64,000 nt of DNA from Alicyclobacillus herbarius DSM 13609 (GTDB lineage: Bacteria > Bacillota > Bacilli > Alicyclobacillales > Alicyclobacillaceae), in NCBI RefSeq assembly GCF_000430585.1, contig NZ_AUMH01000018.1, forward strand, positions 1-64,000. Reading direction: 5' to 3'. Shown piece by piece: positions 7,795 to 28,432 of the stretch (position 1 is its first letter; each line of letters starts with the position of its first letter). Below the pieces are notes generated by a model, which searched no databases, had not been told where the DNA came from, and saw only the letters and a program-made list of their open reading frames with translations. The position numbers and the translations under genes were made by a program.

Positions 7795-7835
7795 TGTACA
7801 AGCCTCCCGGTGGTCCAAAGTTTCGTTTTTGTTGT

Positions 7836-11181: not shown

Positions 11182-11303
11182 ACCAGTCACTTCCTTTGCG
11201 AACGCACCCAAATGGTACCTCTGCTTCCATGCCGAGCGGCGGTCTTGGCAGCCGGGATCCCAAACCCCATGACGATGACCAGGCGTAATGTGCCAGTTCG
11301 TAA

Positions 11304-11328
11304 GGGTGCCCGTGGTTCGCGAGCACCC
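11304..11328 (-). terminator. Intercistronic hairpin between binding-protein and GH106 genes
   Basis: On the minus strand GGGTGCTCG and CGGGCACCC form a nine-pair stem (one G-T) with a seven-base loop. It is followed by TTACG rather than a T-run, so it is more likely an mRNA-stabilising or attenuating hairpin than a full terminator. It stands 24 bases after the binding-protein stop, a usual place for raising SBP levels over downstream genes. Confidence 0.6.
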
Positions 11329-11351
11329 CATCTCATAACTCCGTTAATCAC

Positions 11352-12893: not shown

Positions 12894-12982
12894 GTTATTC
12901 CCCCCTGGATTCATAGACATAACCAATTGCATCTATCGCGACGAAACCCACAGAGTGCTTTCGCCTCTAGGTTTCGCAGCAA

Positions 12983-13867
12983 TCATTCCTTAATGGCGCC
13001 AATCAAAACCCCTTTGACAAAATACTTTTGCAACCACGGATACACCAAGACGACAGGCAGCATGCTGATAACAATGACGGCCATCTTGATAGTTTGACTC
13101 GGTGGCTGAACGAATGTCGTACCCACCAAATTCGGGTTGGCCAAACTCTGTTCTTGGGACTGCATGACAATTTGCTGAAGCAATAACTGCAACGGCCATT
13201 TGGTGGAATCATTCAGATAGAGCAAGGCATTCATGAAATCATCCCAGTGGCCGACCGCATAGAACAACGCAAACGTAGCCAACATGGGCTTCGATAACGG
13301 GAGCGCAATCCGCCAGAAAACACCAATATCTGAACACCCGTCGATACTGGCCGCCTCTACCAGACCCGGAGGCAACTCCTCAAAGAACTTTTTTACAATA
13401 ATCAAGTTGAAGGCCGAAATCGCGACCGGAAGGATCATGGACCATAACGAATTGAGCAAGCCGAGGTTCTTGACGACGAGGTACGTCGGAATCATGCCTC
13501 CACTAAACACCATTGAAAAGATCACCAAATTCAAGATGATGTTTCGCCCTGCTAACTGCCTTCGTGATAACGCGTACGCCATTGTGGTGGTGCAAAAGAG
13601 GTTAACGAGTGTACCCACCACTGTGATGTAGACCGAGATCCAGATGGAATGGAGTAATGTGGGCGTCGAAAAGATAAATTGATATGCAGAAAAAGTAATG
13701 TGTTTCGGTATGAAGACCAGGTATTGCTGACTCAGTTCTTCGTTACTTGCAAAGGAACCAGCCAAGACATAAATGAAGGGAATGAGTGTGATGGCTGATA
13801 CGAACCCTAGAAACACATAGTTGAACACATCAAAGATCCGACCGGCGGTCGAGTTGTATAACTTCAT
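12983..13867 (-). CDS. Sugar ABC permease, LplC/YtcP type
   Basis: A 294-residue CUT1 permease with six membrane segments. The EAA loop VEAASIDGCSDIGVFWRIALPLSK lies near residue 190, and the C-terminus KYFVKGVLIGAIKE is intact, unlike the MalG paralogue at 324-1127. ATG at 13867 is favoured by AGGTG eight bases upstream; a GTG at 13876 is possible. It pairs with the LplB-type permease 23 bases upstream and the lipoprotein downstream. No ATPase gene is present, so a general MsmX-like ATPase elsewhere is expected. Confidence 0.9.
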   Translation of the reverse strand: MKLYNSTAGRIFDVFNYVFLGFVSAITLIPFIYVLAGSFASNEELSQQYLVFIPKHITFSAYQFIFSTPTLLHSIWISVYITVVGTLVNLFCTTTMAYALSRRQLAGRNIILNLVIFSMVFSGGMIPTYLVVKNLGLLNSLWSMILPVAISAFNLIIVKKFFEELPPGLVEAASIDGCSDIGVFWRIALPLSKPMLATFALFYAVGHWDDFMNALLYLNDSTKWPLQLLLQQIVMQSQEQSLANPNLVGTTFVQPPSQTIKMAVIVISMLPVVLVYPWLQKYFVKGVLIGAIKE

Positions 13868-13890
13868 CTGTCGCACCTCAGTCCTTTCCC

Positions 13891-14850
13891 CTAGAATATC
13901 CCGCCTTGTCCAGATTTCTTGGCGATCCAGTTGCTGGCGAATATTAACACAGCGCCCACGACCGACTTAAAGAGACCGACAGCCGTGCTGTAGCTGAAGG
14001 AGCCTTGCGTGATTCCGACAAAGTAGACATAGGTGTCATAGACATCGGCGACACTTCGGTTCAAGGAATTCGTCATCAGATAAATCTGCTCAAACCCATT
14101 ATCCAGGACTGAGCCCATCCGCAAGATCAGTAAGACGATGATCACCGGTCGGATGGCCGGCAGAGTTACGTGCCACATTTGCCTCCACCTGCCCGCACCG
14201 TCAATGACAGCGGCTTCATAGAGCTGAGTATCGACCCCAGCTAAGGCCGCAAGGAACAAGATTGTGCCCCATCCGGTTTCCTTCCAAATGGTCTGGAGCG
14301 TAATCATCGGACGAAACCAAGCTTCACTCGTCAGAAAGGGGATTTGATGCCCGGTTGTTTGCTGTAACAACTGGTTTACGAGTCCACCATCTGTAGTCAG
14401 AAAGACATAGGTAATACTCGCGATGATCACCATAGACATAAAATGGGGTAAGTAGACAATCGTCTGTATGGTCCTTTTGTAAAAGGACTTTCTGATTTCG
14501 TTTAACATGAGCGCAAGAACAATCGGGGCCGGAAAGAAAAACACGATATTGAGCAACGAGAGTATGAGCGTATTTCGCATCAATCGTAAGAAGTCTGGGT
14601 TTTCGAAGAATACCTGGAAGTTTTGCAATCCTACCCACGGGCTGCGGAAAAACCCGAGAAACGGTTGATAATCCTTAAACGCCAGGAGCACGCCCCACAT
14701 AGGTACATATTTAAACACAAGAAAATAGACCAAACCCGGCAACAATAAAACATACAAATACCTATCTCGCCACAGTTTCGATAAAATGGACTTTCTTTTT
14801 GGGATTACAATGTCCGAAGACAGTGTACCCCTTTGTACTTCCGTGGACAT
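13891..14850 (-). CDS. Sugar ABC permease, LplB/YteP type
   Basis: A 319-residue CUT1 permease. The cytoplasmic N-terminus leads into YLYVLLLPGLVYFLVFKYVPMWG and then KDYQPFLGFFRSPWVGLQNF, which is diagnostic for the LplB/YteP group. The EAA loop YEAAVIDGAGRWRQMWHVTLPAI lies near residue 215. It is the first gene of the importer unit and has a promoter with a cre-like site 165-195 bases upstream. Together with LplC and LplA it would bring in oligosaccharides released by the secreted lyase. Confidence 0.9.
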   Translation of the reverse strand: MSTEVQRGTLSSDIVIPKRKSILSKLWRDRYLYVLLLPGLVYFLVFKYVPMWGVLLAFKDYQPFLGFFRSPWVGLQNFQVFFENPDFLRLMRNTLILSLLNIVFFFPAPIVLALMLNEIRKSFYKRTIQTIVYLPHFMSMVIIASITYVFLTTDGGLVNQLLQQTTGHQIPFLTSEAWFRPMITLQTIWKETGWGTILFLAALAGVDTQLYEAAVIDGAGRWRQMWHVTLPAIRPVIIVLLILRMGSVLDNGFEQIYLMTNSLNRSVADVYDTYVYFVGITQGSFSYSTAVGLFKSVVGAVLIFASNWIAKKSGQGGIF

Positions 14851-15014
14851 TTTTGAACCACCCGCCTTACGTCCTATCCACCCAGAACAAGACCATTTTT
14901 ACCGCACTGGCTTGGATAAATTCGTACTAAACGAAGGGAACCGCGTGGATAACGAATTGGTCGAACACCTAATTCGATAAGGAGTAAATATTTTATCACT
15001 TCGAAGTTGACTCT

Positions 15015-15044
15015 ATTATAGTCGAACTAGGGATGCGTTTTCAA
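15015..15044 (-). promoter_or_regulatory. Promoter of the LplB-LplC-LplA-GH106 unit with cre-like site
   Basis: On the minus strand TTGAAA (15044-15039) and TATAAT (15020-15015) are 18 bases apart. TTGAAAACGCATCCC (15044-15030) matches most of the CcpA cre consensus and overlaps the -35, a position that would repress. An A/T-rich stretch AAATAAACAAACAAAAAC lies about 12 to 30 bases further upstream and shares the AAATAAACA core seen at 3835 and 7857. Confidence 0.65.
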
Positions 15045-15105
15045 TCCCGTTTACGTGTTTTTGTTTGTTTATTTTTTTGTTCTTGTACGTCTTAGGCACA
15101 CGGTT

Positions 15106-16401
15106 TTATTCGTTACGGTCTTTGGTAATCTGTTCTAGGGAGCCGCCATACTCTCCGCCCGGATAGAGAGTCGAACTATACAACCTCTTACTTTGTGGAA
15201 TACTCGCTCTATGATCCGGTTTGGTTAGATCGATCGGCCTGCTGGCAAAGATATAAGCTTCGCTATCGGTATAGATAATCACGCTTTCTCTGCCAGTGTT
15301 CATGAGGTCCGCGTGTACAACGTATCCATCCACAGGAAATGTCACGACGGGCCGAAGGTACCCATCATATATGGTGGGCATAATTCCTCCACCACGACGA
15401 TAGGCCAGAATGTAATCGCATTCACTATCATCCCATCCTTGTATGGTTTCGATGATCGTAAGCCACCCGTTTGTCGTCCGTTGTTCTTTCCACACTTCCT
15501 GACCCTTCGCGTCGAGTAAGAATATCGCGTCAAGTCCGTCGACCGGATGCCGTCGAATTCGGTCGACACCCGCAATTTGTAACCCGGGGATATCGGTTCG
15601 GAACTTTCCGATGGCTACGTGCTGCGATTCGATGGACCCCTCATATCGCCACAGCTCCTCGCCGTTCTGGTTGTACATGACGGTAACACTTCCGCCGATG
15701 ACTATCTCCATATCATCGTTCCCATCAACGTCACCCACCCAGATACAATCGGCATGTTCGCGTAGATTTTTACTCGACCACAAGGTCTTGCCGTCTGCGT
15801 TGAGGAAATCATATCCAGCTATAATCTCGTCTCGCCCATCGCCATCGAAGTCGTAGACCCAAGGAAAGTGGCCGACGTTCCCCTCATGCTTCCATAAGAC
15901 ACGAAACTCGTTGTCCAAGGCCCACATGGTGGTATAACGATTCTTCACAAGAATTTCTTTGGCGGCATCATTGCCCGTCAGATTGGCGATGATGATACAG
16001 TCATGAGCCTCCGGTTCTGGAAGAGGATAAGTTGCTTTGATCGCCCCATTCGGCCCATCGATAATATGGAACTGGTCGTTCATCACACAAATTACTTCGT
16101 TGAATCCATCGCCGTCGATATCATAAATCTGTGCCGGGTAGTCGGAGCCGGGTCCGCCACAATGTTCATCCGGTTCGCCGACCTGCCACAGCATCTGGCC
16201 ATCTAAATCAAACGCCGTGAGACATTGCACTTGATGCGGTACAAACCGATCATCAATCCCTCCATTCGGTTGAACCATCAATAACTCCATACGTCCGTCC
16301 GCGTCTAAATCGCCGACAAGCATCTTGTTTCGAAGCCCAGCTCGACTGATGTCGATGACTTTGAGCAGCCGAGCAGTCTGGACATCCTTTTCCTGTGACA
16401 T
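15106..16401 (-). CDS. PL11-like FG-GAP beta-propeller protein, cytoplasmic
   Basis: A 431-residue protein built from beta-propeller blades with Ca-binding loops: GDLDADGRMELL, YDIDGDGFNEVI, YDFDGDGRDEIIAG and GDVDGNDDMEIVIGG. The order of these blades, with GHFPWVYDFDGDG and DGKTLWSS between, resembles the propeller of PL11 rhamnogalacturonan lyases (YesW/YesX). The protein is about 200 residues shorter, lacks the N-terminal beta-domain and has no signal peptide. ATG at 16401 follows AGGAGG. It stands 32 bases after the CE12 esterase gene. It could be an intracellular lyase on imported oligomers or a binding protein; activity cannot be decided from sequence. Confidence 0.6.
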   Translation of the reverse strand: MSQEKDVQTARLLKVIDISRAGLRNKMLVGDLDADGRMELLMVQPNGGIDDRFVPHQVQCLTAFDLDGQMLWQVGEPDEHCGGPGSDYPAQIYDIDGDGFNEVICVMNDQFHIIDGPNGAIKATYPLPEPEAHDCIIIANLTGNDAAKEILVKNRYTTMWALDNEFRVLWKHEGNVGHFPWVYDFDGDGRDEIIAGYDFLNADGKTLWSSKNLREHADCIWVGDVDGNDDMEIVIGGSVTVMYNQNGEELWRYEGSIESQHVAIGKFRTDIPGLQIAGVDRIRRHPVDGLDAIFLLDAKGQEVWKEQRTTNGWLTIIETIQGWDDSECDYILAYRRGGGIMPTIYDGYLRPVVTFPVDGYVVHADLMNTGRESVIIYTDSEAYIFASRPIDLTKPDHRASIPQSKRLYSSTLYPGGEYGGSLEQITKDRNE

Positions 16402-16433
16402 TCTCCGATTCCTCCTCAAGTTGAGGTTTTGTC

Positions 16434-17117
16434 CTATTCCGTCCCAACTAGGGTGACGACGTGTGACGAAAGGTCAATATTCAGGTCCTGGACTCCCTGC
16501 GCAACTAACCTCGCAACCTGATACGCGCCTTTTTCCGTGAAGTGGGTAAAGTCCGAACCCGTTATAGAGGCCATGAACCATGTGTGAGCCTCGTCGTAAC
16601 CGAGTTCCGCAAAGCACACGAGACTTTTCGTCATTAAATCAATGAGGGGCACATTTTCGTCCCTTGCGAGTTGTTTCATCGCCTCGCAATAATCCGGAAA
16701 ATCGTTGATATAGCAACCGGAATCGTAGTGCAGTCGCCCGACGGGGGTAATCAGTATCGGATAGGCATGTTTCCGTCGAGCCCCATCGACATACATCTTC
16801 AGGTACCGTTTATAGGTTGTGAACGGTTCGGTATAGCGTTCTGGTTTACTAACGGTCGAATCGTTGTGGCCCATCTGGATAAAGAGATAATCTCCGGCAG
16901 CCAATTGACGCAGAATATCGTCCAGCCGACCCTCCTCGACAAAGGTTTTCGAGCTCCTCCCACCAATGGCATGATTGAAAAACACAACCTTTTCATCGAA
17001 GTACCTGTCGATAAATTGTCCCCAGCCGGCCTGTGGGGCGAAATCTTTCTCGTAGGTCTGAACCGTAGAATCGCCCGCCAAAAATACCCGAATTCTGTCC
17101 GTGCTCGTTTTCGACAT
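16434..17117 (-). CDS. Rhamnogalacturonan acetylesterase, CE12-type SGNH hydrolase
   Basis: A 227-residue SGNH hydrolase without signal peptide. Block I is VFLAGDSTVQTY with the nucleophile Ser near residue 17, block II Gly lies in IGGRSSKTF, block III Asn in QMGHNDST, and the Asp/His pair in GSDFTHFTEKGA. GDSTVQTY plus GGRSSKTF identifies the rhamnogalacturonan acetylesterase family (RhgT/YesT-like), which removes acetyl groups from galacturonate. ATG at 17117 has GAGGATG upstream. It sits between the PL4 lyase and the propeller protein and probably acts on imported fragments. Confidence 0.87.
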   Translation of the reverse strand: MSKTSTDRIRVFLAGDSTVQTYEKDFAPQAGWGQFIDRYFDEKVVFFNHAIGGRSSKTFVEEGRLDDILRQLAAGDYLFIQMGHNDSTVSKPERYTEPFTTYKRYLKMYVDGARRKHAYPILITPVGRLHYDSGCYINDFPDYCEAMKQLARDENVPLIDLMTKSLVCFAELGYDEAHTWFMASITGSDFTHFTEKGAYQVARLVAQGVQDLNIDLSSHVVTLVGTE

Positions 17118-17154
17118 AGGAACACATCCTCAGATAGAGTCTGCATGACAAAAT

Positions 17155-17177
17155 GGTGCCACCCCTGGGGTGACACC
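17155..17177 (-). terminator. Hairpin after the PL4 lyase gene
   Basis: On the minus strand GGTGTCACCC pairs with GGGTGGCACC around a CAG loop (one G-T pair), and ATTTTGTC follows. It lies 31 bases after the lyase stop and before the esterase gene. It can serve as a weak terminator or attenuator. Confidence 0.5.
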
Positions 17178-17207
17178 CAGTTTGTCGTCAGCGAAATGAA
17201 TAGAGAG

Positions 17208-20103
17208 TCATTTCCTCGCGTCCGGGACCAATTCCATTTTCAAGGCGTCGTACATGATCGACGAATAGTAGTCGGTGATTCTCTGCCCTTGTTGATTCAA
17301 CAACGACTGGGCCGGAACAAGCGACAACACATTGTCTGAGTCACTCTTCAGGAGCGACGTATCAAACGGAATTTGCAAGACCGTGTAGTTATTTCCGGAA
17401 ATACCCAGGCGCGGCATCGCCGAGTCGGAAGCGCTGGTCTTGTACTCATAGAGCTTCGTTCCATTTAGGACAATGTCAACATCCGGCGCCCGTTCCGCCG
17501 CGATGGCAATCGTCAACGAGCCGTGCGTATCCTTGGGGATACGAGGTGTATTGAAATGAATCGTCCACACAGCCGGATCGTTGCTGAAGGGAGCCAATAG
17601 ATTGAAGGGTGCTCCCGGAGTCTTGTTCAGCGGCTGAACATAATTCCAATCAGTAGCTGGATTGCTCTTTCCTACATAATAATTCACGCCATTTGGAAAC
17701 TCGAACGGGTAGCGCAGCCACAAACCCCATTTGCGATACTCATTACCATGCAAGAACTCGTCCGCGGAGCGGTCCGGGGTGCCAATCTGCCATAATAGTT
17801 TCCCTTCCGATTTTTGCTTCCAGACAATGTTTCCTACGTCCGTAGCCTTATTCGAACTTACCTGGATGCCATCCTGCTGGTACTCTTGATAGATTCCTTT
17901 TTGATAGGCATACAGCGTATACATGCCTGGGCGTACGTGTGGGATAGAGAAATTCCCCGACGCGTCCGTCTTGGCGTAGTAGACGTACCCTAAACTTTGA
18001 TGCTGCCAATCTCCACCTGGTGCGGCCAAGATAACTGTCGCTCCGCCTTGCGGAACCTTTCCGGTGATGGTCAGCTTTCCGGATACAGTGCCCCTGCTGT
18101 TGGCCTCGTAAATCGGATCGGCCAACCATTTATAAGGCCATGCTTGTTCATCTAAATGGGCTCGCTGAAGCGCATCCTGGTAGATGTCACTCATGTTATC
18201 CCCATGGTTCAGATACACGAAGATAGGTCCCCAAATGTGCGACCAGCCTGGGGAAGGTTGTGCTGTGTCTCGTCCGTAGTGCGCAGCTTCCGGCGCCCAG
18301 TTGACAATGGGGGTCGTGTCGGTTTGGTGGGCCCCGATTTCCCTTGCGGTAGGAAGTCCGTTCGTATAATCGTTCCCACCCTTGATAAACCAGAGCCCGT
18401 ATTCCGAACCAACCAACCCGAACACGTGCGTATTCGCTTCACTAATCGCATCTTGGTATTTCGTATACGCACTTCCGTCCGGCTGTCGATACGTAGCATC
18501 CATCACTTGATAGCGTGCGGTGACCTGATCCGGACGTGGCAGTTTGTCCGGCGCTTCCCCTTCGTTTTGAACATATGTGAACAATGAGGGATCGCTACGA
18601 ATTGACCACCGAACCTGCCCGACACTCCAGTCGGTTTGACCAGGGGTCAATTCATTGGCGTTTTGCGGCATTCGCGCGATAATGTACGGATAGAATCCGG
18701 CTTCTCCCTTTCGAAAAACAAAGTGAAGCTCATATTCGAACGGCCCCCATCTTTGAAGGTTGGTCATTCGCGCTTCCCGTATCAAACGTGAAGTAAATGT
18801 CCGTCATGTCAGCGCTTTGTTTTGCGATATGGAAGTTTGCATCACCCCGCCCGGGGCTCCAACTGAGCGTGTGAGACTTACCTTGGTCATCTACATAAGA
18901 GGGATTTAAGAAAAAGTATCCATATCCTGAACCAAGTACGTCGCGTTGCCCGGGAATATGCAGCTCTGTCAAGACGGAAGAAGTCTTATCAAAGGTCGCA
19001 CTGATTTTCCCATTTCGAATGGTCACCGTGTTCTCGTTATCAATCAGATGGACATTCCCATCCCCAGGATCACGATAGACAAGCACGCTGTAATCGGTCT
19101 TCCCGTTCACGTTGACATGAAACGTGTTCATGCCGGGTTTGAGAGATAAGGGTTGCGAGGCTTGGCCACTTGCAATCAGCTGTCCATCGACGGTAATCGA
19201 TGCCTCATTCGGTGTAAATGCGGTCGGTGTGAGTTGAATCTGTGTGGTGTCTTTGGACACGTCGACCTCGTAGGTGGACTCCATTGGTGAAAAGGGGCGA
19301 ACGGGTACCCCACTATTCGTGGTTAAATTTTGTAATTGATCATGGGTAGCACGATAAACGGATAGCTGATAAGTCGTACTGTCCTGCCCCGGGCCACCCG
19401 AAGACACTTTGATGGGAATTGTATTCTGGCCTTCCTGTAACGGAACCTTGACCATACCACTGCCGTCGACTTGCTGACCGTTGATGGTGACCACGTCGGA
19501 AGCTGACACAGGGCTGGCTGTCAGCTGAATGCTGGTCTGGTTGTAATCGACACTGGTTGAATAAGACAGTGTTCTCGGTGAAAAATCAGTGCCCAGGGTT
19601 GCTCCTTGGATACTCAGGCTGTGTAACAGGTGATCCGTTGACTTCTCACGATACACGGTGAAAACATAGGAATGACTGGCAAACGGCTTTTTCGAAACGA
19701 CGGAAATCCCGAACGTGTTGGTCCCCCCTGAGGCCACTGAGACGGGAGCCGACGGCTGACCATTTGCCACGGTGGCGCCGTTAACCACAATCGACACTTG
19801 GTTGGGATCCGAAACGGTTGGCTTTGCGACAACCGACTGGACATCACTCGGAACGGTCACGGTATACCCTACATCATCGGAACGAAAGGGTTGATCCGTC
19901 AACACCTTGACCCCTCCAGAAGACGTGATGCCTTCCAGCGTCAGTCCAGATAAGTGGGTATCCGGAGCTTGCGCGTTGGCCTTCGCAAGCGCAAGCCCGT
20001 TCGTTCCAGGAATCAGGGCCAGCGCCGTGGTCAAACACACCGCCCCAGACAGTCCCGCCGCCCTTAGGCGTCCATTCCCCTTTTTCATCGAACGATCATC
20101 CAT
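17208..20103 (-). pseudogene. Secreted PL4-type rhamnogalacturonan lyase, frameshifted
   Basis: Two overlapping frames, 18730-20103 and 17208-18785, together encode one protein of about 965 residues. The first has a signal peptide (MKKGNGRLRAAGLSG, then a hydrophobic core to about residue 40), three tandem cadherin-like beta-sandwich domains (about residues 48-330, each ending in a VYR/VYRE strand) and the start of a PL4 catalytic beta-sandwich (VTIRNGKISATFDKTSSVLTEL). The second continues with YELHFVFRKGEAGFYPYI, the FnIII-like middle domain (GTVSGKLTITG) and the C-terminal jelly-roll. The break is at a run of five C on the plus strand (18744-18748): removing one base joins KMG to PFEYELHF perfectly. 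It may be a true inactivation, a slippage site or a sequencing error. ATG 20103 follows GGAGGTG. Confidence 0.8.
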
Positions 20104-20158
20104 CCTATTAACAGCACCTCCACGCGCATGGTGAGTTTCACCTTTCCCCTAGGAGGTA

Positions 20159-22774
20159 TTACCCTATGTCTGGAATGTGTTCTCCGATAAGCTCGAGGCA
20201 TTCGATGACGCTCAGCGACCACTGGGAGATGGAATTCGTAGACAGCCAGGAGATTTCTTCTATTGGACGGATCCAGTCCCGCTCAGGAATCGGCGCGGCT
20301 GAAAGCGGCAACCGAACACCGCGTCCCCGTTGTTGCAGAATAAGCTCCCATGCTTTCTTGGCCAGGGCCTCACCTCCTTTTCGCGACGCAGCCAATGCCA
20401 CCAAGCGCGCATAGAACATGGGGAGATTCCACCGATGGTTCGTGATTTTCCCATGACTGCGTTCCCGCTTCCCTGCCTCATCCAAGATCGAAAACTCGGC
20501 AAACTCAACTAACATGTCGACCCAATCCGGGTCATCGATTAGATCCATCAGTTCCATCCATGTTTCGGTAGCCCCAAAGGCGACCACCATGTGGTAGTCA
20601 TAGTTGTCGTCTCCCAGGTGGTATAAGTCTCCGGTCTCAGGATTATAGCCAAACGTCGGCCCGGAACAGAGACGAAACGGCATCTGCTTGAGACACTGTA
20701 TTCCACGCAGGATTTTGTCTCGGTACGTGGTGTCCTGGTAACGTTCCCAGCGGGTCAACCAATTCGAGCAAAACGCGGCCCAGTCGGGCCCACTCCGTGT
20801 ATGGGTCGGGAACTCGGGTGCGGGTGGAAAGTATTCTCGCATCGGATCAAGACGTGCCGTAGCGTAGTCCGCGTCTTTCACTTCATCCAAAATGTCGCCG
20901 ATCCGCTCGTCCGAAGTGAGATAATAGTAAAATCGATGTAGGCCAGCCATACTGATGCGAGCCTCTTTACAGCCACATCCCCAGTGGACAACGTTGTGCC
21001 GAGAACCCAGGCCCGCGTAGGGACCGATATGGTATACGTCGACTTCACTGGTATGGCGAGTCATCGCCTCCGCGAAACGAAACACATCTGCCCGACCGGA
21101 TCGCAAAAACATGTACCAAAGCCACAGATTCGGGACCAACTCTGTGTTTTGCCAGGCAAACCCGCCCATATCGTACCGCCACGTGTGGCGAACAGGGTCG
21201 TACGTGTGCATCACGTCCCCGTAGTCCCAAAAGCCATACCACCGACGCTGTTCGACCTCGTGGTGATAAAACGCAAAGGCCTTGTCGAGTTGAGCTTCGA
21301 GCCAGGCGCGTGCCTTGGTGGTTTCGTCGCGCAAGCTCCATACACCAAATACCTTGGTGGCATGGTAGTAATCTGGGCTACACACCAGCAGGGACGGCGT
21401 TTCCGTTTCTCGAGCTACCGTGAGCAATGTATCCTTGGGAGGAGTCGACTCGAACAACCACAGATTGATCTCGCCCGTATTCGCAATCCCAAAAGGAGTT
21501 GACCGTAACTCGTTGAAGCCTTCGTAAGCAGAGACCATGTGCGTGGTTGTGTCGTAATGCCGGAGATCCATGGCGGGCGCATCGGGAGCCCACAGCCACG
21601 CGGTCATCCGCACCGAATCGGTCGATAGTCCGTGCACCTCGATGGATTTTGGATACTTTCGCCAGAAGTGGCGTATCCCGAGCGCAAGTCCCCCTGTTTC
21701 CCCTCCCGCATAAACCACCCCCTGAGAGCGCCCCCCGTGTGCGGCATGAATCCAAGCACATGCGTCCGAGGTTCTTTTTTGAATGAGGTAATGGTCTGGC
21801 GAGTCCTGAAACATTTTAAAGTCGTTCCAGATAGCCGCATCGTCGACAGCCCGCAGAAAATCCGCGTCGGCTATGCCATCCTTCCCGTCGAGCACGAGTG
21901 GAACCCCTTGAATTTGCTTCTCGTAAAGGCCGTCATAGTTCGCAAACTGCCTTGTCGTCAAAAGGCGTGACGCCTCCGAAAAGACTCCATCGTCGCCGAC
22001 AAACCGAATGTGACGGTTGTACGGTTTTCCTTTCAGGGACAAAGAAAGGACCATACCGATTCCCTTGATAAAGTCGCGATCCGCCTCACCGTCATATAGG
22101 AAGGTATGAATCACCCGTACACTCGGGATGTCCTGGTAAACGTAAAATCGCACACAAAACGGCAACCACTCCTGACCCGTTGCTCTCGATGTGTGCACCC
22201 CATCGACCCGGACGACGGCACGAATCGGTCCAGCTTGTTCGACCGTGACCTGCTTAATCGTGCCGATGTACGGCTCTTCCCGGCGAACCTGTAGAACCGA
22301 ATCACACTCGCGTGTTTCACGGATACAGACGAGTTGTCCTCCCGTACAGACGAGTTCGCCGCTCCGTTCAATGCTGCGTACGACCTCGGTTCCGCGCCGG
22401 TTGAGGTACAGGCGTGTTCGACCTGCGTCCACCAGAACATATTCGTCGGTTTGCGTCACGCGCAGGCGCGACTCCCCCTGTTCGATCCGGTCCACAGACT
22501 CCATCCGGTCCGCAGGCAACGCAGCCGCCGATAATCGATATGTAACCGATGCATCCGGTTGAATAACCGCCGCGTGCCCCGTCCACTTGATACTCCCATC
22601 CGGCCAAAACGCGGTTGGCCAACTCTGGACCATCAGGTGTTGGCCGGATTCGGTCCGCAATGCGACCCGGTCGACACTTTGCAATGAACCCCGTGGCCAG
22701 GGCACCCCCCAAGTCACGCCTACAGGAATGTCTGGTTTATGTTCCAACCAACGCAGCGAAACCACTTGACTCAC
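20159..22774 (-). CDS. Exo-rhamnogalacturonan lyase, PL26/YetA type
   Basis: An 871-residue protein of the PcRGLX/YetA family. It begins VSLRWLEHKPDIPVGVTWGVPWPRG, the N-terminal RIFT-barrel signature in which a tract like GVPWPRG is conserved. A central beta-domain (HTFLYDGEADRDFIKGIGM) and a C-terminal alpha/alpha-toroid (WHYMFLRSGR-like, GLGSRHNVVHWGCGCKEARIS) follow. Family members release unsaturated disaccharides from rhamnogalacturonan I ends. There is no signal peptide, so it should act in the cytoplasm. GTG at 22774 is chosen for GGGGGTGA before it; TTG at 22777 is possible, and the frame is open to 22957 through the palindromic element without support. It precedes the PL4 lyase by 55 bases. 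Confidence 0.83.
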   Translation of the reverse strand: MSQVVSLRWLEHKPDIPVGVTWGVPWPRGSLQSVDRVALRTESGQHLMVQSWPTAFWPDGSIKWTGHAAVIQPDASVTYRLSAAALPADRMESVDRIEQGESRLRVTQTDEYVLVDAGRTRLYLNRRGTEVVRSIERSGELVCTGGQLVCIRETRECDSVLQVRREEPYIGTIKQVTVEQAGPIRAVVRVDGVHTSRATGQEWLPFCVRFYVYQDIPSVRVIHTFLYDGEADRDFIKGIGMVLSLSLKGKPYNRHIRFVGDDGVFSEASRLLTTRQFANYDGLYEKQIQGVPLVLDGKDGIADADFLRAVDDAAIWNDFKMFQDSPDHYLIQKRTSDACAWIHAAHGGRSQGVVYAGGETGGLALGIRHFWRKYPKSIEVHGLSTDSVRMTAWLWAPDAPAMDLRHYDTTTHMVSAYEGFNELRSTPFGIANTGEINLWLFESTPPKDTLLTVARETETPSLLVCSPDYYHATKVFGVWSLRDETTKARAWLEAQLDKAFAFYHHEVEQRRWYGFWDYGDVMHTYDPVRHTWRYDMGGFAWQNTELVPNLWLWYMFLRSGRADVFRFAEAMTRHTSEVDVYHIGPYAGLGSRHNVVHWGCGCKEARISMAGLHRFYYYLTSDERIGDILDEVKDADYATARLDPMREYFPPAPEFPTHTRSGPDWAAFCSNWLTRWERYQDTTYRDKILRGIQCLKQMPFRLCSGPTFGYNPETGDLYHLGDDNYDYHMVVAFGATETWMELMDLIDDPDWVDMLVEFAEFSILDEAGKRERSHGKITNHRWNLPMFYARLVALAASRKGGEALAKKAWELILQQRGRGVRLPLSAAPIPERDWIRPIEEISWLSTNSISQWSLSVIECLELIGEHIPDIG

Positions 22775-22804
22775 CAATTCGTCACCCCCAGTCTTTAAAT
22801 GCGT

Positions 22805-22933
22805 GTCCGGAAAGGGGTCAGGTAAGACCCGAGCAGTGCAAGGAAGCCAGCCCAAAATGCGCACTGGGCCTGGTCGCCGGTGGCGACCGTTTAGGCCGGG
22901 CGATAGCCCAGGGATTCTGACCCCTTTCCGGAC
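22805..22933. repeat. 129-bp palindromic element with 17-bp perfect terminal inverted repeats
   Basis: GTCCGGAAAGGGGTCAG (22805-22821) and its exact complement (22917-22933) bound the element. Inside, GGTCGCC and GGCGACC form a hairpin, and CTGGGC and GCCCAG an outer stem. It carries no gene. It sits between the stop at 22941 and the PL26 start at 22774. A related but longer element lies at about 60070-60266. Confidence 0.8.
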
Positions 22934-22940
22934 AACCTCT

Positions 22941-23750
22941 TTAAACCAAGGTCGCAAAGCGTTGTTTCATGACCTCCAACACCTCGTCTCCCGGCGTGTC
23001 CCAGATGACTTGGTTGAAGATTTCGACCTCCACCGGCCCCTGATATTCCGCGGCCTCCACGGCTTGTCGTATTCGAGAAATCTCAATACACCCGTCGCCC
23101 ATCATCCCGCGGGACATGAGCGCGTCCTTCACCGGTGCGAGCCAGTCGTTGACGTGAAAGCCGACGATGTGGCCCGCGGCCCGGCGAATTTCTTCATATA
23201 AGCGGGGGTCCCACCAGACGTGGTAGACGTCGATGACCACGCCGACTTGGTCGGATTGCAGCCTGTCGACGATGTCATTCGCCTGCCCCAGCGTGGAAAT
23301 CACGGACCTGTCGGCAGCAAACATCGGGTGCAGGGGTTCAATCCCGAGTTTGACACTGTGATCGCGGGCGTACGGAATCAATTCGGCGATGCCCTCTTCG
23401 ACCATTTTCCGGGCGTCATCTAAGGTACAGTCCTCCGGCGGGCCACAGACCAAAACCAAGACATCCGTTCCCAGTTCTGCGGCGTCCGCAATCGCGCGGC
23501 GGTTGTCCTCGATGCGCCGGGCCCGTTCGGACGGACTACCGGCAGGCAACATCCCGCCGCGGCAGAGCCCGGACACACAGAGCCCAGCGTCCCTGACCAC
23601 CTTCGCGGCGGCCGACACGCCCATGTCCTCGACTTTGTGCCGCCACAGACCAATCCAGCCGATGCCCGCTCGCGCACAACCATCGACCGCTTCGCGGACG
23701 GTCCACCGTTCCGTCGTCATCTGATTCAGGCTCAAATACTTACAGTCCAC
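22941..23750 (-). CDS. Sugar phosphate isomerase/epimerase (AP-endonuclease-2-like TIM barrel)
   Basis: A 269-residue TIM barrel of the xylose-isomerase-like family. Metal ligands appear as GIEPLHPMFAADRS (Glu near 135), VVIDVYHVWWDP (Asp and His near 170), GFHVNDWL (His near 197) and VEVEIFNQ (Glu near 240). It overlaps the end of the DUF993 gene by 19 bases; GTG at 23750 follows GGGGTGG. With the DUF993 protein and the dehydrogenase upstream it forms a three-gene cassette with an oxidation, isomerisation and aldol-cleavage flavour. The actual substrate is unknown. Confidence 0.85.
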   Translation of the reverse strand: MDCKYLSLNQMTTERWTVREAVDGCARAGIGWIGLWRHKVEDMGVSAAAKVVRDAGLCVSGLCRGGMLPAGSPSERARRIEDNRRAIADAAELGTDVLVLVCGPPEDCTLDDARKMVEEGIAELIPYARDHSVKLGIEPLHPMFAADRSVISTLGQANDIVDRLQSDQVGVVIDVYHVWWDPRLYEEIRRAAGHIVGFHVNDWLAPVKDALMSRGMMGDGCIEISRIRQAVEAAEYQGPVEVEIFNQVIWDTPGDEVLEVMKQRFATLV

Positions 23751-24910
23751 GATTCCACCCCTGCCACGGCGAGAACCTGCTGCATCCGATGGACAGCCAG
23801 TTCCGGATCGCGAAGTAGCCCGGCGACATCAGCAAGCCGGAACAGTTCTGCCAGGTGAGGGACGGATCGCATACTCTCCATGCCCCCAACCATCCGAAAG
23901 TGCGACTGATATCCGTTCAGGTAGGAGAGAAAGACCACGCCCGTCTTGTAAAAGCGAGTTGGCGCCCGGAAGATGTGACGGCTCAAAGGGACGGTCGGGG
24001 CCAGGATTCGTTGGTAACCCTCGACGTCTCCCGCATCAAGCGCATATAAAGCGGCCGACGCCGCCGGCGCGATGGCGTCGAAGATGCCGAGCAGGGCATG
24101 GCTGTAACTCCCTCCCTGGCCCAAAATCAGCTCGGGGTAATGAAAGTCGTCTCCGGTGTACATGCGGACATTTTCCGGAAGCTGGCGACGCATCTGGATT
24201 TCCAGATTGGCATTCAAGAGCGAGATTTTGATCCCGTCGATTTTGTCGGCGTGGCGGTGGATGACGTCTAAACAGACATCCATGGCACGCAACGGGTCCT
24301 TATGGCCCCAGTAATTCTCCAGCGCCGGGTCAAACATATCCCCGAGCCAGTGGACAATGACCGGTTGCGACACCTCGTCCAAAACCCGTCCGTACACCCG
24401 GACGTAATCTTCAGGCCCCTGGGCGACCTTCGCCAAAGCGCGACTGGCCATGAGGATGACGCGTCCCCCCAAACCTTCGATAAACCCGCACTGCTCCAGG
24501 TACGCTCGCTCGATGTCGGCCAGAGTCACACCCGGGCCCGCAGAGATGTGGTCGGTTCCCGCGCCACACGCGACTTGACCGCCGCATGCCTTGGCCTCTG
24601 CGATGGATAGGCGGATTAGTTCCTGGCAAGCCTCCCAATTGAGCCCCATCCCGCGTTGCGCGGTATCCATCGCCTCCGCTACGGCGAGCCCCAGCGACCA
24701 CAGGTGGCGCCGGTAGGCGATGGTCGCCTCCCAATCCACCGCGCAGGCTGAGGACGGATCGACATCTTGCCAGGGATCCGCCACCACGTGGGCGGCGGCG
24801 TACGCCACGCGAGACCGCGCGGGGGGTCTCTTCTCGATGTGCAAAGGCTGTCCTTGCAACCGGTAGGTTTCCAAGCCGCCATCCCTTGTAGGCAAGCGCA
24901 GCTCCAACAT
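23732..24910 (-). CDS. DUF993 protein, dihydrodipicolinate-synthase/aldolase-like
   Basis: A 392-residue protein of the DUF993 family, related to class I aldolases of the DapA superfamily. Recognisable parts are VACGAGTDH (about residue 108), VIVHWLGDMFDPALENYWGHKD, a likely Schiff-base Lys in DGIKISLLNANLE (near residue 225) and VRMYTGDDFHYPELI. ATG at 24910 has AAAGGAGGGG upstream; the frame is open to 24943. The gene lies between a dehydrogenase and an isomerase in one unit. The family has no firm biochemical function that I can state, so the reaction is left open. Confidence 0.8.
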   Translation of the reverse strand: MLELRLPTRDGGLETYRLQGQPLHIEKRPPARSRVAYAAAHVVADPWQDVDPSSACAVDWEATIAYRRHLWSLGLAVAEAMDTAQRGMGLNWEACQELIRLSIAEAKACGGQVACGAGTDHISAGPGVTLADIERAYLEQCGFIEGLGGRVILMASRALAKVAQGPEDYVRVYGRVLDEVSQPVIVHWLGDMFDPALENYWGHKDPLRAMDVCLDVIHRHADKIDGIKISLLNANLEIQMRRQLPENVRMYTGDDFHYPELILGQGGSYSHALLGIFDAIAPAASAALYALDAGDVEGYQRILAPTVPLSRHIFRAPTRFYKTGVVFLSYLNGYQSHFRMVGGMESMRSVPHLAELFRLADVAGLLRDPELAVHRMQQVLAVAGVESWTVSI

Positions 24911-24947
24911 AGACTCCCCTCCTTTATTGTGCGTGCCGGACAACCTC

Positions 24948-26117
24948 TTACCGTTCCGCGATCAGGGCACGGACTTCCGCTAGTGCCGGCACGTCCACCC
25001 AACGCCGTTCCTGCCAGGACTGCAGAGCCAACTCCGCAAGTTGGACACCCTTGGCACCCTCGAACAGATTGAACCGGAAGGGCGTGCCAATGGCCACGTG
25101 CTTGAGGAACATGTCCCACTGCACCTTGAAGGCGTTGTCCGGTTCCTCACGCTGGGGAACCGGCACCCACTGCGCTTGGTAATCGTTCTTATCTGGCAAA
25201 TCCGGGTTCCAAATCGCCTTGGGAGTGAATGACCGATGCTGCACCTTACACTCGCGTAGCCCAGCCACCGCGCTGCCCTCAGTCCCGTCCACCTGCAGTT
25301 CGAACAGTTCCTTGCGATTGACACGGACGCACCAAGACGAGTTGATGTGTACGATAATCCCGTTCTTGAGCTCGAAGGTCGTGTAGGCAGCATCGTCCGC
25401 GGTCACATCGTACGGCTCTCCCTGTTCATCCCAGCGCTTCGGGATGTGGGTAGCACCGAGGCAGGACACCGCTTTCACGTCACCAAACAGGTTGTCCAGC
25501 ACATACCGCCAGTGGCAGAGCATGTCGACGATAATGCCGCCTCCATCCTCTTTGCGGTAGTTCCAAGACGGGCGTTGCCCTTCCTGCCAGTCCCCTTCAA
25601 AGACCCAGTACCCAAACTCGCCGCGCACGGACAGGATGCGGCCAAAGAAACCGGTGTCGATCAACGCCTTGAGCTTTAATAGCCCAGGGAGGAACAGCTT
25701 ATCCTGGACCACCCCGTGTTTCACCCCGGCCCTCTCGGCAAGCTCCGCGAGTTCCAAAGCCTCCCGCAGGTTCACCCCGGTCGGCTTCTCGCAGTAAATG
25801 TGTTTCCCCGCCGCTATCGCGGCACGCACTCCCTGGGCGCGCAACTGCGTGGTCTGGGCGTCAAAGTAAATCTCGTTATACGGGTCTCGCAAACAACTCT
25901 CCAGGTCCGTAGTCCACCGCTCGATCCCGTACCGTTCTGCGAGCGCGCGGAGCTTGTGCTCGTTTCTTCCAACCAAAATCGGGTCTGGCATCAAGGTCTC
26001 TCCGCCAGGAAGGGGGATTCCCCCCTGGGCTCGAATCGCCACGATGGACCTCTCCAAGTGCTGACGGGTTCCCATACGTCCCGTGACCCCGTTCATCACA
26101 ATGCCGATCTTTTTCAT
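24948..26117 (-). CDS. Gfo/Idh/MocA family oxidoreductase (variant N-terminus)
   Basis: A 389-residue dehydrogenase whose nucleotide-binding start is unusual: KKIGIVMNGVTGRMGTRQHL, followed by an extra stretch with GGIPLPGGETLMPDPILVGR before the second strand. The EKP motif is YCEKPTGVN near residue 127, and GGGIIVDMLCHWRYVLDNLFG holds the active-site Asp/His pair. ATG at 26117 follows GATAGGAGG. It heads the cassette with DUF993 and the isomerase; its stop is separated from the DUF993 start by 37 bases containing the GGACAACCTCT stop-adjacent motif. Substrate unknown. Confidence 0.85.
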   Translation of the reverse strand: MKKIGIVMNGVTGRMGTRQHLERSIVAIRAQGGIPLPGGETLMPDPILVGRNEHKLRALAERYGIERWTTDLESCLRDPYNEIYFDAQTTQLRAQGVRAAIAAGKHIYCEKPTGVNLREALELAELAERAGVKHGVVQDKLFLPGLLKLKALIDTGFFGRILSVRGEFGYWVFEGDWQEGQRPSWNYRKEDGGGIIVDMLCHWRYVLDNLFGDVKAVSCLGATHIPKRWDEQGEPYDVTADDAAYTTFELKNGIIVHINSSWCVRVNRKELFELQVDGTEGSAVAGLRECKVQHRSFTPKAIWNPDLPDKNDYQAQWVPVPQREEPDNAFKVQWDMFLKHVAIGTPFRFNLFEGAKGVQLAELALQSWQERRWVDVPALAEVRALIAER

Positions 26118-26275: not shown

Positions 26276-27091
26276 TCATACCTTGCCGTGCATCTTCCGG
26301 AACTGTTGCGGCGACATGCCCACCTTAGACTTAAAGGCACGGTAGAACGTGGATAAGGTTTCGAACCCCACCTCAAAACAGATGGAGACGACCTCTTTTT
26401 CTGTCTCCATGAGCAGCTCCTTCGCTCGACGTATCCGGACTTCGGTCAGGTATTGCATCGGGGTACAGTGAAACTTTTGCTTGAAGACCTCATTCATGTG
26501 GCGCGGGGTCAGCTTGAGTATCCCTGCCAAGTCTGCGGGGGAGATCCCCTCAAAATAGTGAGATTCCATATAGTCGCGCAAGACATGGGCGCGGTGCGTG
26601 TTGAGGTCGGGCGGACCCTCCATCGTCCGACCGCGCGCCACCGTGACCAACACATTCAACAGGTACCCGCATACCGCCAGGTCGGAGTAAGGCCCTGGGT
26701 TCGTCTGCTCGTAGAGGATTTTCCGGAACAGGTCGCGCACTTCGCTGACCGCCAGCGGATCGACAATTTGGTAGGTGGGGCGCGTCAATGTGTGGGCCAT
26801 CAACTCCCGACCGGCTGGCCAGGTTTCCAACACATCTCCAAACGCGAGTACGAGTACTGTCATGCGGGAGTAGGCGTGCACGGAGTGTTCCGCGTTCGGA
26901 CAAATGTAGACCATCTGATCCCGCGATACCTCATACGTCCGACCCTGCAAAGAGATCGCGCCGTGCCCGCCCAAGACGTATAAGATTTGCGGTATCTCGT
27001 GATAGTGGCTAGGCACACGGTCTCCCGGATGGTGTGTACTTTCATAGATCAAAACGCGGTTCGGCGGTAACTCAATCTCCTGGAATGACAA
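26276..27091 (-). CDS. AraC-family transcriptional regulator with cupin sensor
   Basis: A 271-residue regulator. The N-terminal cupin (HHPGDRVPSHYHEIPQILYV, with the His pair and later GRTYEVSRDQMVYI) would bind a sugar or sugar acid. The C-terminal AraC domain has two helix-turn-helix units: ISPADLAGILKLTPRHMNEVFKQ (about 180-205) and VSICFEVGFETLSTFYRAFKSK (about 236-258). The start is TTG at 27091 with GAGGGAT before it, since a stop codon precedes. It sits between the MFS genes and the dehydrogenase. It is the only regulator in the rhamnogalacturonan region and the natural candidate for control of the AAATAAACA sites, which is inference. Confidence 0.9.
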   Translation of the reverse strand: MSFQEIELPPNRVLIYESTHHPGDRVPSHYHEIPQILYVLGGHGAISLQGRTYEVSRDQMVYICPNAEHSVHAYSRMTVLVLAFGDVLETWPAGRELMAHTLTRPTYQIVDPLAVSEVRDLFRKILYEQTNPGPYSDLAVCGYLLNVLVTVARGRTMEGPPDLNTHRAHVLRDYMESHYFEGISPADLAGILKLTPRHMNEVFKQKFHCTPMQYLTEVRIRRAKELLMETEKEVVSICFEVGFETLSTFYRAFKSKVGMSPQQFRKMHGKV

Positions 27092-27148: not shown

Positions 27149-28375
27149 TTAGGACAAGCTGGTGCTAACCGATTCTCCACGTTGTTTGAGTACACCTGCT
27201 GCCTGCAGGCGACCGGTGAACAACAGGGCGATACAGCTGACCAGCTGCACCAATGCGGCCAACATCCAGACGTGGGTCATCGCCATGTGCTCTTGAAGGA
27301 AGCCCGCCAAGGCCGGCGTGATTGCGCCCGCCAACATTCCGACATTCATGACCAGGCCTATCGCGGAGCCAGCCACCCGATTCGGAACAACCTGCGACGT
27401 CAGCGTGAGAATCACCGGGGTGATAGGGTAGCCGAAAAAACCAAGCAGCAAGACCACGATAACCAGCAGCCAAACCGGCAACGCCGCTACCATGAGGGCC
27501 ATCAGAACACCGGTGGCGAGTGTGATGAAGACCAGTACCTGTTTCCGGCGAACAATCGTGCCGCGGTCGCAGAAACGGCCAATCAAGACGCCCCCGAGTG
27601 CCCCGGAGAGGCCCATCAGACTGGCGATGACGCCGCCCTCGGAGAGGGACATATGCTTGACCGTCATCAAGAACGTGGGGGCCCACAACAGCACAATCCA
27701 CCAACCGGACATCAGTAACAGATAAAAGATTCCGAACACGACCACGGCCGGTCGACGAAACATCGCACGGAGCGGGACTTGCTCCGTCAGATTCAACTTG
27801 GCACGGTCCCCACGCGGATACCGGACAAGCACAGCATAGAGCAACGACACCACAAGCCCGAGCAGCATCGCCACAAGAAAGACCGGGCGCCAACCGTACC
27901 GGGACCCTACGACGGCCCCCAGCCATGTTCCAAAGAAGCCGCCAATCGGGTAGCCAGCCCAATAGATGGACATGACGGTTGTGCGCTCTTGCGGGGTCGT
28001 GACCAGCGCGATTTCCTGGGACGCGGCAGGCCAGAACAGCCCTTCGCCAAGGCCGGTCACGATACGGTAGATCAGCATGGTGGTCAAACCTGTGGCCAGT
28101 CCGGTAGCCCCGGTCGCCAACGAGAACAGCGTCAAGCCGCAGACAAGGACGAGCTTACCGGTGAATTTATCGGACAGGACTCCACCAACAAACAGCAGGA
28201 CCACGAAACCATAAAAGAAGGAACTTAACAAAAGCCCAGATGTACCTTTGGAGAGGTCAAACTGTTTCGCGATGAGCCCGACGGAAGAAGACATGACCAT
28301 CCGGTCAACCGAATACATCATGTACCCTAGACCACAGAGCAGAGTGATTAACACCAGTCCCCCACGGCTTCTCAT
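27149..28375 (-). CDS. MFS transporter (ACS/hexuronate-like)
   Basis: A 408-residue major facilitator with 12 predicted segments. YMMYSVDRMVMSSSVGLIAKQF and GGVLSDKFTGKLVLVCG (loop 2-3 motif A, D-K-F-T-G-K) place it near the anion:cation symporter group used for sugar acids. GEGLFWPAASQEIA resembles motif D2. ATG at 28375 has GGGGAGGAG before it; an open frame to 28393 begins at TTG without need. It is next to a sugar-porter-type MFS gene and the GH78 rhamnosidase, so monosaccharide or uronate uptake is likely. Confidence 0.83.
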   Translation of the reverse strand: MRSRGGLVLITLLCGLGYMMYSVDRMVMSSSVGLIAKQFDLSKGTSGLLLSSFFYGFVVLLFVGGVLSDKFTGKLVLVCGLTLFSLATGATGLATGLTTMLIYRIVTGLGEGLFWPAASQEIALVTTPQERTTVMSIYWAGYPIGGFFGTWLGAVVGSRYGWRPVFLVAMLLGLVVSLLYAVLVRYPRGDRAKLNLTEQVPLRAMFRRPAVVVFGIFYLLLMSGWWIVLLWAPTFLMTVKHMSLSEGGVIASLMGLSGALGGVLIGRFCDRGTIVRRKQVLVFITLATGVLMALMVAALPVWLLVIVVLLLGFFGYPITPVILTLTSQVVPNRVAGSAIGLVMNVGMLAGAITPALAGFLQEHMAMTHVWMLAALVQLVSCIALLFTGRLQAAGVLKQRGESVSTSLS

Positions 28376-28432
28376 GAACGCTCCTCCCCGCAAACAGGTT
28401 TTACCGGCCGTCTCTTCTTCATATCTATGGCG

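Follow-up and report, generated by a model that had tools for sequence, protein, structure and literature searches.

A conserved dehydrogenase–DUF993–isomerase gene trio of Alicyclobacillus herbarius as the candidate core of a non-phosphorylative sugar-acid route

In non-phosphorylative Entner–Doudoroff and Weimberg/Dahms-type routes, an unphosphorylated sugar is oxidized, an aldolase with the dihydrodipicolinate synthase (DHDPS) fold takes part and a glycerate kinase provides the exit, and in the inositol route of Thermotoga (IolG, IolN, IolO, IolM) a Gfo/Idh/MocA-family (Gfo) dehydrogenase is paired with a PF01261 epimerase. Parts of both recur in a trio of adjacent genes for a Gfo dehydrogenase, a DUF993 protein and a PF01261 enzyme, which lies in the first 64,000 nucleotides of contig NZ_AUMH01000018.1 of Alicyclobacillus herbarius DSM 13609, the stretch analyzed here and called the window (Table 1). 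Compared with the non-phosphorylative routes, the trio has an additional PF01261 enzyme and an aldolase-like protein of another family, and just 8 of the 57 DUF993 loci compared have an enolase-type gene nearby. Compared with the Thermotoga route, which to our knowledge has no DUF993 counterpart, the NCBIfam iolG and IolO scores of the trio fall far below cut-off. Relatives also exist in Sinorhizobium meliloti, where SMc04130 (structure 3ju2) resembles the isomerase, SMc04132 (4dnh) is 60–63% identical to DUF993 and SMc04133 is a ‘putative oxidoreductase’, adjacency of these genes being taken from their locus numbers. No function was found for SMc04130–SMc04133 either, in the structural entries and the one table of a PhaR study in which SMc04132 and SMc04133 appear (PMC12542648); a passage of a further paper names SMc04134 as a transcription factor (PMC11387232). 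The open-access literature yielded no study naming DUF993 or its accessions, subscription papers and preprints lying outside the search.

We find that the trio is a conserved module and tentatively propose that it may form the core of a widespread non-phosphorylative sugar-acid route, in which oxidation and class-I aldol cleavage end in glycerate. The exact order Gfo–DUF993–isomerase, on one strand and with fewer than 300 bases between neighbors, is kept in 42 of 57 DUF993 loci from four phyla, a non-random sample whose plasmid regions (17 of the 147 plasmid records with DUF993) were chosen with an eye to variety and annotation, a Gfo gene being visible beforehand in some labels, and in which four loci (L048–L051) were reached via Gfo or isomerase matches, making linkage there partly a matter of construction. 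Because this order persists across four phyla, the trio is almost certainly a real module and no chance cluster. By group, the order holds in 9/9 loci of Alicyclobacillaceae, 20/21 of a second Bacillota family (f2, which we take to be Paenibacillaceae), 4/5 of Actinomycetota, 1/1 of Gemmatimonadota, 8/17 of Pseudomonadota and 0/4 of the others, three of the loci (L008–L010) being near copies of each other. Less biased sets are the nine Alicyclobacillaceae genomes with DUF993 (9/9), family f2 (20/21, from 21 of 33 listed places taken with wide flanks) and a scan of genome contigs (5/9). A Gfo relative lies within 9 kb of DUF993 in 48 of the 57 loci and an isomerase relative in 51; these counts rest on tblastn, and crude gene calls merged some frames. 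The neighbors of DUF993 are thus not haphazard, in keeping with the sequence-only reading of the trio as an uncharacterized conserved unit.

DUF993 itself is patchily distributed, occurring in 9 of 41 Alicyclobacillaceae genomes, 32 of 394 family-f2 genomes (31 above cut-off), 147 of 72,556 plasmid records and 4 of 398 genomes sampled from the phylum, the last count including the window’s genome and two weak partial matches. Evolutionary distances of the three proteins correlate across 25 loci (r 0.74–0.91; none of 2000 permutations as high), a result that shared descent would also give and that therefore cannot serve as proof of common function.

The protein at the center of the trio covers the entire PF06187 (DUF993) model (positions 1–382 of 382; 623.6 bits against a cut-off of 24), and PF06187 was the sole family reported, with no match to the DHDPS family PF00701 at E ≤ 0.001. 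Its closest solved relative is 4dnh (E 2e-153). An AlphaFold2 model built from nine sequences (mean predicted local distance difference test (pLDDT) 85.4; predicted template-modeling score (pTM) 0.86) superposes on 4dnh with Z 55 and, among the 50 structure matches listed, which comprise 4dnh and DHDPS-superfamily chains, on the latter with Z 28.5–29.2 and root-mean-square deviations of 2.4–2.5 Å over 284–289 aligned residues. Profile alignment with the DapA-family proteins of the relatives (probability 95, E 5e-8; ten DapA rows, of which one, from L107, spans just 7 residues and is uninformative) places K239 on the DapA Schiff-base lysine, T94 on the first threonine of GTTGE and TGDD on SGDD, with residues numbered from a TTG start at 24943. 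K239 is invariant in 34 of 34 DUF993 sequences, among them Planctomycetota-like relatives of 37–38% identity, so that no sequence lacks the lysine that the sequence-only reading had singled out as a possible Schiff-base residue. The predicted fold and the aligned lysine place DUF993 structurally in the superfamily of DHDPS and N-acetylneuraminate lyase (NAL) and make it very likely a Schiff-base enzyme, with K239 as the putative reactive lysine.

DUF993 thus resembles the DHDPS/NAL superfamily (PF00701) in its predicted triose-phosphate isomerase (TIM)-barrel fold, Schiff-base lysine and (S/T)GDD motif, but differs in being only 13–16% identical and about 100 residues longer. It also departs from the superfamily at two active-site positions. 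The catalytic tyrosine of DHDPS enzymes (Tyr133 in Escherichia coli) lies on strand 5, and GxxGE is their carboxylate-binding motif; in all 34 DUF993 sequences, His198 stands in the place of the tyrosine and D93-T-A-Q-R97 replaces GTTGE. Judged by these residues, DUF993 does not appear to be an ordinary pyruvate aldolase.

The flanking enzymes retain the residues expected for catalysis. The dehydrogenase has the Rossmann and C-terminal domains of Gfo/Idh/MocA proteins (PF22725/PF02894/PF01408 at 89.6/64.1/41.7 bits, all above cut-off), and its nearest solved relative is 3oqb (556 bits, E 3e-166). The EKP lysine and a D...H pair are catalytic in Gfo/Idh/MocA oxidoreductases, and the corresponding K111, D198 and H202 are invariant in 30 of 30 sequences. 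Its description as atypical fits an N-terminal glycine motif of the form G-x-x-G-R-M-G, in which G10, G13, R14, M15 and G16 are equally invariant. The third protein matches AP_endonuc_2 (PF01261) at 137.7 bits, above cut-off, with 7vpf (E 2e-115) followed by 3qc0 and 3ju2 as solved relatives. The metal ligands of this family follow the pattern E, D, H/Q, E, and the candidate ligands E138, D174 and E241/E243 are present in 31 of 31 sequences, position 199 being H in 27 and Q in 4. No named NCBIfam enzyme model reaches its curated cut-off for any trio protein; each has a solved relative (4dnh, 3oqb and 7vpf for DUF993, Gfo and isomerase, respectively) for which no function was found, the structures’ names stopping at ‘uncharacterized’, ‘oxidoreductase’, ‘xylose isomerase’ and ‘sugar isomerase’. 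A role of the third protein as a plain hydroxypyruvate isomerase was considered and is weakened: the NCBIfam model gives 24.5 bits where 353 are needed, and kinase-linked loci L029, L048 and L077 have no adjoining isomerase.

Recurrent linkage to glycerate kinase suggests where the products might go. Ten of the 57 loci have a relative of glycerate kinase no more than 4.5 kb from DUF993, belonging to either of two unrelated families, PF02595-type in six (L036, L037, L048, L049, L054, L103) and DUF4147-MOFRL-type in four (L024, L025, L026, L029), the short loci L075–L085 being judged for the PF02595 kinase alone. Pfam was applied to L036, L049, L024 and L029, and the others were called by similarity; nine of the ten loci have a single open stretch covering most of the kinase, the match in L054 being split over two frames. 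In genome G468 (L077) and in Arthrobacter (L048), the kinase directly follows DUF993, in the slot usually taken by the isomerase. On a DUF993 tree computed without L078 and L083, kinase linkage requires at least nine changes, three too-short rows being left out of the count. A PF02595 gene is present in all 40 searched Bacillota genomes with DUF993, mostly as a single copy, and lies at most 6 kb downstream of DUF993 on the same strand in five of them (G009, G010, G468, G498, G500), against a chance expectation of about 0.10 genomes (6 kb either side); since near relatives are among these genomes, the number of independent cases is below five. L024 and L048 each encode an aldehyde dehydrogenase as well, and the two are related (43% identity).

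Carriers hint at an acid. Galactonate-type carriers of the major facilitator superfamily (MFS) and tripartite tricarboxylate transporters usually carry acids; the former are found in 9 of the 57 loci, the eight outside the window at 54–83% identity, and the latter in L022, L033, L034 and L035. Two of these MFS loci, L026 and L050, are gammaproteobacterial and have the carrier, 54–55% identical, beside DUF993. For the window’s carrier, the best NCBIfam model is TIGR00893 (D-galactonate transporter family), below cut-off at 132 bits of the 395 needed. Among the nine Alicyclobacillaceae loci, an MFS carrier accompanies the trio in seven, and an AraC gene or relative does so in eight, the window included. 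Where Gfo is missing in Pseudomonadota, another dehydrogenase is often encoded: a short-chain dehydrogenase/reductase (SDR) gene is beside or near DUF993 in four of the five Pseudomonadota loci without Gfo, L031 being the exception, and the oxidation step therefore seems general.

In the route that we propose, the MFS carrier, or other carriers in other bacteria, would import a sugar acid, the Gfo dehydrogenase would oxidize a secondary hydroxyl to a ketone and the PF01261 enzyme would shift this ketone or invert the neighboring carbon. DUF993 could then form a Schiff base through Lys239 and split the keto-sugar acid by a retro-aldol reaction into three-carbon units, most plausibly hydroxypyruvate or pyruvate together with glyceraldehyde. 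These units would be converted to glycerate and, by glycerate kinase, to 2-phosphoglycerate, entering glycolysis; the kinase is encoded next to the trio in some genomes and elsewhere in that of the window. Taken singly, aldol cleavage by DUF993 is probable, glycerate is the probable end product and a sugar acid is the slightly favored substrate. The sequence-only reading had gone further and seen a complete route of oxidation, isomerization and aldol cleavage. The parts of that route stand, with catalytic residues intact and an aldolase fold predicted for DUF993, and from them we infer the reactions, their directions, the order of the steps and the substrate class.

A bolder version, to which we give a rather low probability, would make DUF993 a new family of class-I aldolases acting on non-deoxy keto-sugar acids, forming hydroxypyruvate and using histidine for tyrosine and an arginine-containing carboxylate site; with its dedicated Gfo and PF01261 partners it would constitute a previously undescribed central route, free of phosphorylation, for a sugar acid abundant in the environment, in at least four phyla. 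More broadly, the operon, the kinase link and the altered Schiff-base site turn three enzymes, for whose solved relatives we found no function, into one testable pathway, whose hosts include soil bacteria, rhizobia and Alicyclobacillaceae. An aldolase with a new specificity, if that is what DUF993 proves to be, would also be of use in sugar-acid synthesis.

Several observations weigh against the proposed route. We know of no activity for any member of the trio, and the replacements of tyrosine by His198 and of GTTGE by DTAQR mean that the chemistry of DUF993 may differ from that of pyruvate aldolases, in a fold that also holds dehydratases such as 7c0c. No glycerate kinase was seen near DUF993 in 47 of the 57 loci, the window included and some of the loci being short, and the only PF02595 gene of the window’s genome sits among housekeeping genes, unlinked to the trio. 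The isomerase’s place in the route is put in doubt by its absence next door in the three kinase-linked loci L029, L048 and L077. Carriers and regulators also vary, with ATP-binding cassette (ABC) carriers in L023, L029 and L030 and regulators of AraC, TetR or LacI type. Moreover, two sets of loci are not easily reconciled with the route. A Gfo-less Pseudomonadota branch (L027, L030–L032) has genes for coenzyme A (CoA)-transferase, acyl-CoA dehydrogenase or enoyl-CoA hydratase near DUF993. The Planctomycetota-like L008–L010 lack both Gfo and isomerase and carry an enolase-superfamily relative close to DUF993, the two being separated in L008 by an FMN oxidoreductase gene.

The altered active site counts in favor of an alternative that we nonetheless consider unlikely, in which DUF993 would act as a Schiff-base dehydratase or hydratase comparable to L-2-keto-3-deoxyarabonate or 5-keto-4-deoxyglucarate dehydratase, so that the trio would oxidize, isomerize and dehydrate a sugar acid. 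Such enzymes occur within this fold, with 7c0c/7c0d among the Foldseek matches of DUF993, and enolase-superfamily proteins, often dehydratases, are encoded nearby in the 8 loci mentioned above; by contrast, the link to glycerate kinase, which directly follows DUF993 in G468 and L048, calls for carbon–carbon cleavage into three-carbon units. Less probable again is a cyclitol or deoxy-cyclitol substrate, from which Gfo would make an inosose-like or keto-sugar ketone, the PF01261 enzyme would remove water by β-elimination and DUF993 would cleave the resulting deoxy-diketone. A Gfo protein with a PF01261 protein is the pairing of IolG with IolE, the NCBIfam models iolG and IolO give weak scores (68.6 and 47 bits), and L030 has next to DUF993 an acyl-CoA dehydrogenase that matches a cyclohexane-1-carbonyl-CoA dehydrogenase model, below cut-off. 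However, the iolG and IolO scores are far under their cut-offs of 355 and 300, and no iolB, iolC or iolD name appears in the annotated plasmid regions examined. Improbable, too, is a pathway in which a glycoside oxidized at C3 by Gfo is cleaved through β-elimination by the PF01261 enzyme and DUF993 handles the 3-keto sugar, as the C-glycoside enzymes DgpA and DgpB, with their β-elimination cleavage, might suggest. The solved relatives of Gfo include DgpA chains (E 2e-10 and 6e-9), L002, L004 and L028 have a second Gfo gene close to the trio and eight family-f2 loci have one of a different subfamily there, but the likeness to DgpA is weak and far below that to 3oqb, and acid-type carriers and glycerate kinase would be left unexplained.

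From the surrounding rhamnogalacturonan genes and a window without rhaABD or kdg genes, the sequence-only reading had put forward a product derived from rhamnose or a uronate as the candidate substrate. In the window, the trio does stand between glycoside hydrolase GH78/MFS carriers and polysaccharide lyase PL26, the rhamnogalacturonan set is largely common to L003 of Alicyclobacillus cellulosilyticus and no UxaC was found in a search of the genome. The absence of rhaABD and kdg genes holds, at most, within the window: contig 23 encodes L-rhamnose isomerase (rhaI; 634 bits, cut-off 531), a rhamnulokinase-like protein (458 bits, below the cut-off of 528) and the RhaD aldolase-dehydrogenase (rhaD-ADH; 990 bits, cut-off 568). 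Uronate genes lie 10.7–15.7 kb beyond the window’s end on the same contig (contig positions 74717–79730), with a uxaB-like tagaturonate reductase (584 bits, cut-off 359), mannonate dehydratase (uxuA; 475 bits, cut-off 191), a 2-keto-3-deoxygluconate (KDG)-kinase-like protein (131 bits, below the cut-off of 440), 2-keto-3-deoxy-6-phosphogluconate (KDPG) aldolase (198 bits, cut-off 156) and a KduI/IolB-family isomerase that scores as IolB. The trio would thus not be the genome’s only rhamnose or uronate route. When the 56 other loci were compared (E ≤ 1e-15, at least 30% of the query; L002, on a contig of just 10 kb, could be judged only in part), relatives of PL26, GH106, the PL4-like and the cadherin-like genes were near the trio in L003 alone; for GH78 there was a single weak match, in L091, and for the PL11-like gene none. 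The AraC gene and MFS carrier in Alicyclobacillaceae, and glycerate kinase in a recurrent manner outside them, accompany the trio more constantly. On the basis of these genome searches and the locus comparison we reject a rhamnogalacturonan product as the main substrate reading, and this version of the route is as improbable as the glycoside pathway above. As a separate observation, the KduI/IolB-family isomerase of the uronate cluster may stand in for UxaC.

Table 1. Coordinates of the trio and of neighboring features in the window
Feature	Position	Strand	Remarks
Gfo/Idh/MocA-family NAD(P)-dependent dehydrogenase	24948-26117	-	389 aa; first gene of the trio
DUF993 protein, predicted DHDPS-fold enzyme	23732-24910	-	Likely ATG start at 24910; PF06187
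PF01261 TIM-barrel sugar isomerase, epimerase or dehydratase	22941-23750	-	269 aa
AraC-family regulator	26276-27091	-	HTH_18, AraC_binding and cupin domains (Pfam)
MFS carrier, likely importer	27149-28393	-	MFS_1 205 bits (Pfam)
Rhamnogalacturonan gene set	7876-22957	-	GH106-like, PL11-like fragment, PL4-like domains, cadherin-like, PL26-like

The gene calls agree with the tight packing described from sequence. The longest DUF993 open reading frame, 23732–24943, begins with the TTG at 24943; translation likely starts at the ATG listed in Table 1, which is preceded by AAAGGAGGGG, leaving a 37-base gap (24911–24947) to the Gfo gene. The Gfo gene has its own AGGAGG ahead of its ATG, and the end of DUF993 and the start of the isomerase gene share 19 bases (23732–23750).

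Some relatives of the trio show other arrangements. DUF993 frames are in pieces on plasmids of Chimaeribacter arupi (L050, 12089–13481) and Pseudomonas silvicola (L051, 8355–12286), and L006 also has a split DUF993 frame; in L051 only part of Gfo is in one frame, and the isomerase frames of L050 and L051 look whole. Long, divergent enolase-superfamily proteins (471–477 aa; MR_MLE_C only 30–45 bits) are linked to the trio in L022 (6429–7859) and L028 (10178–11590). Three haloarchaeal plasmids fetched via a 59–62% identical Gfo (L045, L046, L047) have no DUF993 in the stretch fetched (3/3); L045 and L047 carry genes annotated as dihydrodipicolinate synthase family near Gfo, and L046 has a DUF4147-MOFRL glycerate kinase beside it. 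Finally, the window encodes a second Gfo/Idh/MocA protein (6502–7818, minus strand, 438 aa), with relatives beside or near the trio in L002 (78% identity), L004 (44%) and L028 (43%); it is possibly a fourth component of the trio that is sometimes detached.

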